From Novosphingobium huizhouense (GTDB taxonomy: Bacteria > Pseudomonadota > Alphaproteobacteria > Sphingomonadales > Sphingomonadaceae), in assembly GCF_020179475.1 (NCBI RefSeq), contig NZ_JAILXZ010000002.1, positions 372,001 to 436,000 of the forward strand: 64,000 nt of DNA, written 5' to 3'. Shown here in pieces: positions 11,454 to 14,794 of this stretch (position 1 is the stretch's first letter; every line of letters starts with the position of its first letter). Position numbers and translations under genes: made by a program. Under the pieces are notes generated by a model. The model was not told the origin of the DNA. It saw only the letters and a program-made list of their open reading frames with translations, and searched no databases.

Positions 11454-12869
11454 TTAGTGCGCCAGCGCCTTGACGATGTCTTCGACCATCTTCTTGGCGT
11501 CGGCCAGAAGCATCATGGTCTGGTCCATGTAGAACACGTCGTTGTCCACGCCGGCATAGCCCACGCCGCCCATGGAGCGCTTGACGAAGAAGATCGTCTT
11601 GGCCTTGTCGACGTCGAACACCGGCATGCCGTAGATCGGCGAGGACTTGTCGGTCTTGGCGGCCGGGTTGACCACGTCGTTGGCGCCGATGATGAAGGCA
11701 ACGTCGGCCTGCGCGAACTCGGAGTTGATGTCCTCCAGCTCGAACACTTCGTCATAGGGCACGTTGGCTTCGGCCAGCAGCACGTTCATGTGGCCGGGCA
11801 TGCGGCCCGCCACCGGGTGGATGGCGTACTTCACGTTGACGCCTTCCTTTTTCAGCACGTCGCCCATCTCGCGCAGCGCGTGCTGCGCCTGGGACACGGC
11901 CATGCCGTAGCCCGGGATGATGATGACGTTTTCGGCTTCCTTCATCATGTAGGCGGCGTCTTCGGCGCTGCCGCGCTTCCACGGGCGCTGCTCCTTGGCC
12001 GCGCCGCCGCCGGCCGCCGCTTCCGCGCCGAAGCCGCCCGCGATCACCGACAGGAACCCGCGGTTCATCGCCTTGCACATGATGTACGAAAGGATCGCGC
12101 CCGAAGAGCCCACCAGCGCGCCGGTGATGATCATCGCGGTGTTGTGGAGCGTGAAGCCCATCGCCGCCGCGGCCCAGCCCGAATACGAGTTGAGCATCGA
12201 GACGACCACCGGCATGTCCGCGCCGCCGATCGGGATGATCAGCAGGAAGCCGATGATGAACGACAGGACGGTGATCGTCGCGATCACCCACTGGCTCTGG
12301 TCCTGCGTGAAATAGGCGACGAGGCCGAGGATCGCGATCAGCGTGCCGAGGTTCAGCACGTGGCGGCCCGGCAGCAGGATCGGCGATCCGCTCATCTTGC
12401 CCGCCAGCTTCAGGAACGCGATGATCGAACCCGAGAAGGTGATCGCACCGATGGCGATACCAAGGCCCATCTCGATCCGGCTCTGCGGTTCGATGATTCC
12501 GTCAGCGCCGGCAATGCCGAAAGCCTGCGGGTTGAGGTAGGCGGCAAGGCCCACCAGCACGGCGGCAAGGCCGACCAGCGAGTGGAACGCCGCCACCAGC
12601 TGCGGCATGTCGGTCATCTTGATCTTGCGCGCGGTGACGAAGCCCACCCCGCCGCCGATGGCGATCGCGCCTGCGATTTCCGGCAGGCTGGCGATGCCGT
12701 GCGTGACCAGCGTGGTGACCATCGCGATGGTCATGCCGATCATTCCATAGCGGTTGCCCGCGCGGCTCGTCGCCGGGCTGGAAAGCCCGCGCAGCGCGAG
12801 AATGAAGAGGACGCCCGAGACGAGGTAGGCGAGCATCGCCCACGAAGGAACGGCAGTGACGTGTTCCAT
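11454..12869 (-). CDS. pntB: NAD(P) transhydrogenase subunit beta
   Basis: Membrane and NADP(H)-binding subunit of the proton-pumping transhydrogenase, 471 residues. It uses the proton gradient to drive hydride transfer from NADH to NADP+, feeding NADPH to biosynthesis. The first half is strongly hydrophobic with about nine membrane segments; the second half holds the dIII domain with IIIPGYGMAVSQAQHALREM and the end region containing GANDVVNPAAKTDKSSPIYG. The ATG shares bases with the pntA2 stop (TGATG). Last gene of the operon. Confidence 0.96.
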   Translation of the reverse strand: MEHVTAVPSWAMLAYLVSGVLFILALRGLSSPATSRAGNRYGMIGMTIAMVTTLVTHGIASLPEIAGAIAIGGGVGFVTARKIKMTDMPQLVAAFHSLVGLAAVLVGLAAYLNPQAFGIAGADGIIEPQSRIEMGLGIAIGAITFSGSIIAFLKLAGKMSGSPILLPGRHVLNLGTLIAILGLVAYFTQDQSQWVIATITVLSFIIGFLLIIPIGGADMPVVVSMLNSYSGWAAAAMGFTLHNTAMIITGALVGSSGAILSYIMCKAMNRGFLSVIAGGFGAEAAAGGGAAKEQRPWKRGSAEDAAYMMKEAENVIIIPGYGMAVSQAQHALREMGDVLKKEGVNVKYAIHPVAGRMPGHMNVLLAEANVPYDEVFELEDINSEFAQADVAFIIGANDVVNPAAKTDKSSPIYGMPVFDVDKAKTIFFVKRSMGGVGYAGVDNDVFYMDQTMMLLADAKKMVEDIVKALAH

Positions 12870-13153
12870 CACTTCTTCTCCTTCTTCTTGTACATCGCCA
12901 GCATGCGCTCGGTCACGGCAAAGCCGCCGAAGATGTTGACCGAAGCCAGCACCACAGCGCCAAGGCCCAGCCACTTCGACACGGCAGACCCTTCCGCCGC
13001 CGAAGCCACCAGCGCGCCGACCACGATCACCGAGGAAATCGCATTGGTCACCGCCATCAGCGGCGTATGCAGCGCCGGGGTAACCGACCAGACCACGTAA
13101 TAGCCCACGAAGCAGGCCATCACGAAGATCGAGAGAATTGAGATGAAGTCCAT
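12869..13153 (-). CDS. pntAB: NAD(P) transhydrogenase subunit alpha 2 (membrane part)
   Basis: A 94-residue protein with three or four membrane segments (ISILSIFVMACFVGYYVVWS and following) that supplies the alpha-subunit transmembrane helices of a three-gene transhydrogenase. The C-terminus MLAMYKKKEKK and NIFGGFAVTERM are typical. The ATG at 13153 follows the stop of an inserted DUF559 gene by a base. Normally this gene directly follows pntAA; here about 505 bases separate the two. Confidence 0.94.
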   Translation of the reverse strand: MDFISILSIFVMACFVGYYVVWSVTPALHTPLMAVTNAISSVIVVGALVASAAEGSAVSKWLGLGAVVLASVNIFGGFAVTERMLAMYKKKEKK

Positions 13154-13154
13154 A

Positions 13155-13574
13155 TCAGCACGTGACTCCGAAAGAGTCTCCCCCTCTGGGGGAGGTGGCA
13201 GCCCGAAGGGCTGACGGAGGGGGAACTTTGCCGCACTGGGCGACGATGGAATTGGCGACTGCCTCGGGGTCGCGCAGGACCTCGGCGGCGGCAATACGCA
13301 TGACCGCGAAGCCTCGGGAACGGAGAACGGAATCGCGGACTTCATCGTGGTCCGGATTGTCGCCCATCGAATGGGCGATACCGTCGATCTCGATCACGAG
13401 ACGCGCTTGCGCGCAGTAGAAATCGACCACCATGCGACTGACGGGATGTTGGTTGCGAAACTTGAACCCCATGGGGCGGCGGCGAAGCTGTTGCCAGAGC
13501 AGCCCCTCGGGCAACGACATGAGCCGCCGCAACCTGCGGGCGGATGCCAACGCCTCGGGCGTGTGGTCTTCCAT
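13155..13574 (-). CDS. DUF559 (VSR-like) endonuclease-domain protein inside the pnt operon
   Basis: A 139-residue protein of the DUF559 family, related to very-short-patch-repair-like nucleases. Residues 9-110 hold the domain: ARRLRRLMSLPEGLLWQQLR, then FRNQHPVSRMVVDFYC, LVIEIDGIAH and SRGFAVMRI, with Asp and Glu-x-Asp in a nuclease-like layout. Its ribosome binding site (GGAGGGGGAAG) comes from a palindromic repeat just upstream, and its last 20 or so residues are read through an inverted copy of that repeat. It separates pntAA from pntAB. Role unknown; the arrangement suggests a mobile cassette. Confidence 0.85.
   Translation of the reverse strand: MEDHTPEALASARRLRRLMSLPEGLLWQQLRRRPMGFKFRNQHPVSRMVVDFYCAQARLVIEIDGIAHSMGDNPDHDEVRDSVLRSRGFAVMRIAAAEVLRDPEAVANSIVAQCGKVPPPSALRAATSPRGGDSFGVTC
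13179..13224. repeat. Palindromic repeat R1, downstream side of the DUF559 gene
   Basis: A 46-bp element made of two hairpins: TCCCCCTC/TGGGGGA-type and GCCC-GAA-GGGC (13201-13210). It is an inverted copy of the repeat at 13579-13626. Beside it, GACTC-CGAAA-GAGTC at 13164-13178 forms a third small hairpin. Confidence 0.85.
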
Positions 13575-13578
13575 CGGC

Positions 13579-13626
13579 TTCCCCCTCCGTCAGCGCTTCG
13601 CGCTGCCACCTCCCCCAATGGGGGAG
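13579..13626. repeat. Palindromic repeat R2, upstream side of the DUF559 gene
   Basis: A 48-bp inverted partner of R1. The inner stem reads GCGC-TTC-GCGC where R1 has GCCC-GAA-GGGC: both arms changed together, so the stem is kept. The copy provides the Shine-Dalgarno sequence of the DUF559 gene. Confidence 0.85.
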
Positions 13627-13660
13627 AATCCCCCGAACTGCTTCCGGTCCCCCGAACCGA

Positions 13661-14794
13661 TCACCCGAGCAGCCTCTCATGCACCACCTTGCCGCCTTGC
13701 GTCAGGCGGATGGCGGTGCCGATTTCCTCGTCGAGCACAGGCTTGCCCAAACCCTTGTCCCAGAACGCCGAGAGGAAGTTGTAGAGGTTGCGGCTGAACA
13801 GCGCCGAAGCGTCGGCCGGCAGGTGCGCGGGCGTGTTCGAATAGCCGACGATCTTTACGCCGTGCTTCACGACCACCTGGTCCGCCACAGAACCTTCGAC
13901 GTTGCCGCCTTGCGCCACGGCGAGGTCGAAGATGACCGAGCCGGGCTTCATGCTGGCGATCTGCGCGTCCGAAACCAGGCGCGGCGCAGGCCGGCCCGGG
14001 ATCAGCGCGGTGGTGATCACGATGTCCTGCTTGGCGATGTGGCTCGACACCAGCTCGGCCTGGGCCTTCTGGTATTCCTCGCTCATCTCCGTCGCATAGC
14101 CGCCGGCGCCCTCGCCCTCGATCCCGGCGACGCTCTCGACGAAGATCGGCTTGGCGCCGAGCGACTGGATCTGCTCCCTGGTGGCCGAGCGCACGTCGGT
14201 CGCCGAAACCTGCGCGCCGAGGCGGCGGGCGGTGGCGATCGCCTGCAGCCCGGCGACGCCGACGCCCATGACGAAGCACTTGGCCGCCGAAACGGTGCCG
14301 GCGGCGGTCATCATCATCGGGAAGGCGCGGCCGTAGTGGTCGGCCGCGACGAGCACCGCCTTGTAGCCGGCGAGGTTCGACTGGCTGGAGAGGATGTCCA
14401 TCGACTGCGCGCGGGTGATGCGCGGCATGAACTCCATCGCCAGTGCTTCCAGGCCGGCGGCGGCATAGGCGTCGACCCGGTCGCGGCGGCGGAAAGGATC
14501 GAGCCCTGCCGCCACCCACGCACCGGGCTTTGCCCCGGCGAGAAGCTCCGCTTCGGGCCCCTGCACGCCGAGCACGATGTCCGCACCCGTCGCCGCCGCG
14601 CCCTCGGCCACGACCTCGGCTCCTGCCGCGCGGTAGTCGTCGTCGCCGATCGACGCGGTCGCGCCGGCGCCGCTCTCGATCCGCACGACGGCGCCGAGCG
14701 CGATGAACTTCTTCACCGTCTCGGGCGTTGCCGCGACGCGCGTTTCGCCTTCCGCCCGCTCGCGCAGCACGGCGATCGTGGTTGCCCCCGCCAT
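13661..14794 (-). CDS. pntAA: NAD(P) transhydrogenase subunit alpha 1 (NAD-binding part)
   Basis: Soluble NAD(H)-binding dI subunit, 377 residues. The domain pair is clear: an N-terminal alanine-dehydrogenase-like region (ERAEGETRVAATPETVKKF) and a Rossmann region with VMGVGVAGLQAIATARRLGA. Other family blocks are RAQSMDILSSQSNLAGYKAV and SVIFDLAVAQGGNVEGS. It starts 7 bases after the stop of the small aa3-oxidase-IV-like gene and would be co-transcribed with pntAB and pntB across the DUF559 cassette. Confidence 0.95.
   Translation of the reverse strand: MAGATTIAVLRERAEGETRVAATPETVKKFIALGAVVRIESGAGATASIGDDDYRAAGAEVVAEGAAATGADIVLGVQGPEAELLAGAKPGAWVAAGLDPFRRRDRVDAYAAAGLEALAMEFMPRITRAQSMDILSSQSNLAGYKAVLVAADHYGRAFPMMMTAAGTVSAAKCFVMGVGVAGLQAIATARRLGAQVSATDVRSATREQIQSLGAKPIFVESVAGIEGEGAGGYATEMSEEYQKAQAELVSSHIAKQDIVITTALIPGRPAPRLVSDAQIASMKPGSVIFDLAVAQGGNVEGSVADQVVVKHGVKIVGYSNTPAHLPADASALFSRNLYNFLSAFWDKGLGKPVLDEEIGTAIRLTQGGKVVHERLLG

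Follow-up and report, generated by a model that had tools for sequence, protein, structure and literature searches.

Why does a nuclease gene lie between pntAA and pntAB, and do the palindromes on either side of it belong with it? The question is raised by a locus of Novosphingobium huizhouense within a 64,000-nucleotide stretch of DNA, hereafter called the window, in which pntAA, a DUF559 gene, and pntAB follow one another in that order on the minus strand. The features of the locus are as follows.

12869..13153, minus strand: pntAB, the downstream host gene (start codon at 13153 and junctions of relatives; putative name from the original prediction)
13155..13574, minus strand: DUF559 (PF04480) nuclease gene, 139 aa (open reading frame list and Pfam match)
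13174..13225, minus strand: inverted family-A palindrome downstream of the DUF559 gene (inverted-repeat comparison)
13233..13550, minus strand: DUF559 domain, residues 9–114 (Pfam match, alignment, and model)
13579..13630, plus strand: family-A palindrome upstream of the DUF559 gene (inverted-repeat comparison)
13661..14794, minus strand: pntAA (transhydrogenase alpha), the upstream host gene (open reading frame list and tblastn against relatives; putative name from the original prediction)

The original prediction described a DUF559 gene set between pntAA and pntAB with inverted two-hairpin repeats around it, and the coordinates, the PF04480 match of the open reading frame (103 bits, E 1e-29), and the complementarity of the repeats agree with that description. 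The two arms, 13174–13225 and 13579–13630, are 52 nt each and 90% complementary, and the chance expectation for the two arm matches in the window is 0.00. The repeats were also said to supply the gene with its ribosome binding site and its C-terminus, and both are seen directly in the sequence: GGAGG (13584–13588) lies inside the upstream repeat, 9 nt 5' of the DUF559 ATG, and the downstream repeat codes for about residues 117–134 (PPPSALRAATSPRGG), the Pfam match having ended at residue 114. The inner stems read GCCC-GAA-GGGC in one copy and GCGC-TTC-GCGC in the other on the plus strand, and pairing is kept by paired changes, again as predicted. No defence genes neighbor the DUF559 gene at this site.

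From its predicted structure (mean pLDDT 82) and conserved residues, the window protein appears to be a compact PD-(D/E)XK nuclease of the Vsr/EDxHD-homing type. The fold and the conserved acidic and histidine residues are those of PD-(D/E)XK / Vsr-EDxHD members; E23, D51, E62-x-D64, and H68 are among the residues that do not vary across a 34-row alignment. A fold search returned, in this order, the DUF559 protein 3hrl, the catalytic domain of the homing endonuclease I-Bth0305I (3r3p, E 4e-5), and then PvuRts1I (5hmC restriction enzymes) and Vsr; a profile search gave the same first two, with I-Bth0305I at E 7e-4. By both sequence profile and fold, I-Bth0305I is the nearest solved nuclease outside DUF559, but it is intron-borne, whereas the window protein is a stand-alone, palindrome-framed protein of 139 aa. 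Vsr and Caulobacter VsrA are likewise of the PD-(D/E)XK type and VsrA is itself a DUF559 protein, although the fold match to E. coli Vsr (1vsr) is weaker (rank 13, E 0.02). Searches of NCBIfam and PADLOC with the DUF559 protein gave nothing beyond weak or sub-cut-off matches, those in PADLOC being to a homing endonuclease model and DpdF. The protein is maintained, because dN/dS among close pairs of relatives is 0.04–0.26.

The compensatory change seen between the two window copies is general across the genus in palindrome families A and B. In the genus-wide set of 47 distinct family-A copies, pairing holds in 98.8% of stem cells, and the stems contain 54 double-changed cells compared with 12.5 in shuffles. 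Covariation is 0.517 in family A (0.122 shuffled) and 0.433 in family B (0.135 shuffled). The palindrome search pattern fixed some bases of the flanking arms, so that conservation of those arms is not independent evidence. The upstream palindrome (13579–13630) folds as single-stranded DNA with a z of -4.66, and a search of Rfam gave no match. In asymmetric elements, the third arm matches the purine arm of the hairpin better as a mirror than as a direct copy in 144 cases and worse in 50. Among fully matched third-arm/purine-arm pairs, the counts are G>G 760, A>A 135, and A>T 91. Such mirroring (G on G; A or T on A) is the rule for purine-motif intrastrand triplexes, the triplex itself being a prediction. 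The second loop is 1–4 nt in many elements of the C–F types; at that position, a hairpin of about 20 nt serves as the linker in family A, as in the window. In another alphaproteobacterial family, an inverted element of roughly 100 nt with a longer internal stem (GCGATTTCAGCATCTTAG...CTAAGTGCTAGAAATCGC) lies around a DUF559 gene (L189, genome G216), and a stem similar to that of this element occurs at L310.

The linkage of DUF559 nucleases with palindromes extends well beyond this locus. The genome containing the window has about 15–19 family-A copies and four DUF559 genes. DUF559 matches and their flanks were drawn from 60 same-genus genomes, with inverted repeats scored between both flanks; inverted palindromes frame 75 of the first 91 genes and 79 of 132, and none of 179 displaced control positions is framed, which bears out the expectation that the repeat would be found beside other DUF559 genes. 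At least six palindrome sequence families, labelled A–F, frame the genes of the genus, and palindrome family goes with nuclease protein clade: the family label requires 23 changes on the DUF559 protein tree compared with 75.8 when shuffled, and family E palindromes correspond to one branch. Some 40 DUF559 genes in the genus lack palindromes. Most of these code for proteins with LKERAR or LHERAR starts, and the linkage therefore belongs to particular clades.

Presence of a nuclease also goes with presence of its palindromes. B palindromes occur in 27 of 27 genomes with an A/B nuclease versus 11 of 33 without (p 1.4e-8), E palindromes in 7 of 7 with an E nuclease versus 9 of 53 without (p 3e-5), and C palindromes in 8 of 10 with a C nuclease versus 7 of 50 without (p 9e-5), these p-values being inflated by genome relatedness. 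Mismatched nuclease/palindrome pairs are the better control: two of three show no association (p 0.78 and 0.22), and the third, which sets the C nuclease against E palindromes, gives a borderline result (Fisher p 0.08, rank test p 0.013). Some genomes of the genus, e.g., G046, hold palindromes without the matching nuclease. G046 has 29 family-A palindromes and no DUF559 match, with some of the copies in a tandem array near C1:60232-60942, as in an orphan population.

Viewed from the repeat side in nine genomes, 28 of 29 close palindrome pairs are inverted, and all eight pairs of opposite-strand neighbors 250–700 nt apart contain DUF559 and nothing else. The same palindromes are scattered genome-wide as singles and inverted pairs. 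Framing, clade specificity, co-occurrence, and this census thus all speak against a population of repeats unlinked to DUF559, and we regard the linkage of nuclease and palindrome as demonstrated with high confidence. It is also found elsewhere in Proteobacteria. Palindromes frame 13 of the 30 top DUF559 loci of a phylum-wide sample, and 49 of 78 loci (48 of 77 minus one N-masked artefact) in a named scan whose narrow DUF559 alignment favors a single portion of the family; the control positions of that scan are framed in 2 of 837 cases. The framed loci of the named scan are in records titled Mesorhizobium, Bradyrhizobium, Xanthomonas, Dyella, Herbaspirillum, Thiocapsa, and others.

The cassettes are gained and lost. 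Across 30 same-genus species, the pnt junction is empty (7–20 bp) in 12, among them the sister G048 (14 bp), contains a DUF559 cassette in nine, and is in a different state in the others, so that the empty pntAA-pntAB junction anticipated in relatives does exist. Eight changes of junction state are needed on the tree of the host locus, hairpin scars are left at the junction in G003 and G046, and a single origin for all pnt cassettes is neither favored nor rejected (p-AU 0.248). The junction looks like an insertion hot spot because unrelated small inserts occur there in relatives. These inserts, of the size of small open reading frames, are at L055, L076, L078, L081, and L082 (G009, G005, G024, G056, and G008).

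The window's genome has two further palindrome-framed cassettes, and these are missing in the sisters G048 and G033, where the flanks abut or nearly so. G009 has two copies of one cassette lineage in different places; they share 85% identity, and their homology does not extend past the outer ends of the palindromes. Empty sites, scars, and this second-site copy are at odds with an insertion equally old in all relatives. The sister species G015 and G027 are polymorphic for palindromes, single and paired; a D-family inverted pair is present in G027 and absent in G015. In the regions G015:C26 and G027:C1 (L238-L263), the two sisters fill the same intergenic slots differently, with a palindrome of the DUF559 type in one species where the other has a CGTCATTGCGAG-type REP. 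No target-site duplication was seen at two empty sites or in the G015/G027 comparison. This lack would fit repair-type copying better than strand transfer by a transposase, the sites being old. Because most cassettes have long occupied their sites and evolve under purifying selection, they may be domesticated.

Based on the linkage, the turnover, and the nearest folds, the DUF559 nuclease and its cognate palindrome probably form one selfish unit of the REP/RAYT kind, served by a Vsr-like nuclease as originally proposed. In the most likely mechanism, the palindrome would be recognized in its folded form by the nuclease, which would also drive the spread of the palindrome. Recognition would follow extrusion as a hairpin, a cruciform, or a purine-motif triplex, as might happen in single-stranded DNA at a replication fork, and the nuclease would nick or cut there. 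New copies of the palindrome, or of the cassette as a whole, would then arise at other intergenic positions through repair from an existing copy and not through strand transfer of the transposase type, in keeping with the absence of target-site duplications from the sites that were compared. Such a unit would insert between genes, and at pnt it would bring its own ribosome binding site into a co-directional operon.

Other readings of the same association have to be weighed. DUF559 could be a Vsr-like nuclease kept by the cell for mismatch repair or damage response, with the palindromes acting as regulators or terminators copied by something else. The low dN/dS and the palindrome-free group of the genus favor a host function of this kind, as does Caulobacter VsrA (CCNA_02930), the one DUF559 protein for which genetic work was found, which induces the SOS response in the absence of its partner, the ScmA methylase (PMC12907096). 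It would nevertheless leave the clade-specific, genome-wide palindrome populations, their co-occurrence with the nucleases, and the patchy gain and loss unexplained, and we consider it unlikely, though the strongest of the alternatives. Somewhat less likely still is hitch-hiking, in which DUF559 genes do no more than insert between palindromes already in place, these being fragile and hot spots of recombination. Intergenic slots do swap repeat family between sister species, unrelated small open reading frames do occur at the pnt junction of relatives, and BoxC loci are reported to be unstable among E. coli strains (PMC4666352); against this, all eight cassette-size inverted pairs hold DUF559 and no other gene, and each clade of the protein is associated with a palindrome family of its own.

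That the enzyme is a defence or toxin-like nuclease, with palindromes as its markers or sinks, seems improbable. The PADLOC matches that suggest it are weak and partial-domain, and the pnt site lacks defence neighbors. To our knowledge, dispersed palindrome populations are not expected of known defence systems. Hairpins are common near gene ends, and the framing could in principle reflect chance proximity of ordinary terminators; this is refuted by the controls (0/179 and 2/837), which leave it a negligible probability. A selfish nuclease-palindrome unit remains the reading that we prefer.

How does such a unit compare with known repeats? REP/REPIN sequences and their RAYT (TnpA_REP) enzymes are similar in that short palindromes occur as singles and inverted pairs in genome-wide populations, a dedicated enzyme gene lies inside inverted copies, pairing is clade-specific, and stem changes are compensatory. 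They differ in that the enzyme here is a DUF559 Vsr/EDxHD-type nuclease, not a Y1/HUH transposase, and in that the GTAG tag is missing and the arms are G-rich mirror repeats. Membership in REP/RAYT is excluded, the enzyme being of another superfamily (PF04480 match, nuclease fold, not Y1/HUH). CGTC-tagged REPs are also alphaproteobacterial palindromes without a known enzyme, and they share intergenic slots in a sister species. Their stems start AT/AT and have 4–5 nt loops as described in PMC3733652, whereas the family-A consensus is AG/CT with 3 nt loops, which rules out that family A is a CGTC-tagged REP.

In design, the palindromes resemble the BoxC/PIT/TM intrastrand-triplex repeats (PMC4666352), which share the hairpin with a fold-back third strand, the inverted pairs, and the intergenic location; family C is nearly identical to the TM sequence. 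Families A and B differ in having an internal hairpin where BoxC/PIT/TM has a second loop of 1–6 nt. Holder et al. 2015 found no mobility activities near these repeats and considered their origin unclear (PMC4666352), whereas the palindromes described here are linked to DUF559; triplex folding in vitro was reported for E. coli BoxC only. We found no report tying DUF559 to any repeat in the open-licence literature, as far as its available texts go, and one may exist elsewhere; nor did that literature yield a mention of ycjD together with BoxC, triplex, or palindromic repeats.

The gene ycjD of E. coli K-12 is a DUF559 gene in the RefSeq annotation. BoxC copy no. 9 of the 23 in that genome lies 168 bp from ycjD, and the 3' end of the gene coincides in part with another BoxC-like hairpin. 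The gene ycjD apparently belongs among the nucleases that travel with matching hairpin repeats. It is present in 3,365 of 5,426 complete E. coli genomes and absent in about 38%. In a sample of 59 E. coli strains, repeat matches are fewer in those without ycjD, in a pattern that follows lineage. The fabI-sapF slot is not a clean empty site, because both ycjD-lacking strains examined have an efflux operon there. It is a tentative proposal, somewhat short of an even chance, that in Proteobacteria, including E. coli, the BoxC/PIT-type triplex repeats represent the scattered copies of a mobile unit. Its enzyme, a DUF559 nuclease, would recognize the palindrome in folded form and spread it through breakage and repair, and the class would be unrelated to RAYTs.

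How BoxC/triplex repeats spread is recognized as a puzzle, and a DUF559 partner, if true, would give them an enzyme. DUF559, a family whose name says no more than that its function is unknown, would gain a testable substrate, and REP-like systems would have arisen more than once, from unrelated nucleases. Together, the evidence suggests that DUF559 genes and their cognate palindromes are a so far unrecognized kind of selfish repeat-plus-enzyme system, and ycjD makes the idea testable in the laboratory strain K-12.

Some further observations concern E. coli BoxC and ycjD. BoxC copy number among the sampled strains looks bimodal, at about 10–26 versus 1–4. Two Campylobacter phage records (MG065686.1 and MG065691.1) contain exact E. 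coli BoxC sequences, possibly as host DNA contamination. In E. coli ETEC6 (NZ_CP041627.1), ycjD is interrupted by IS1.
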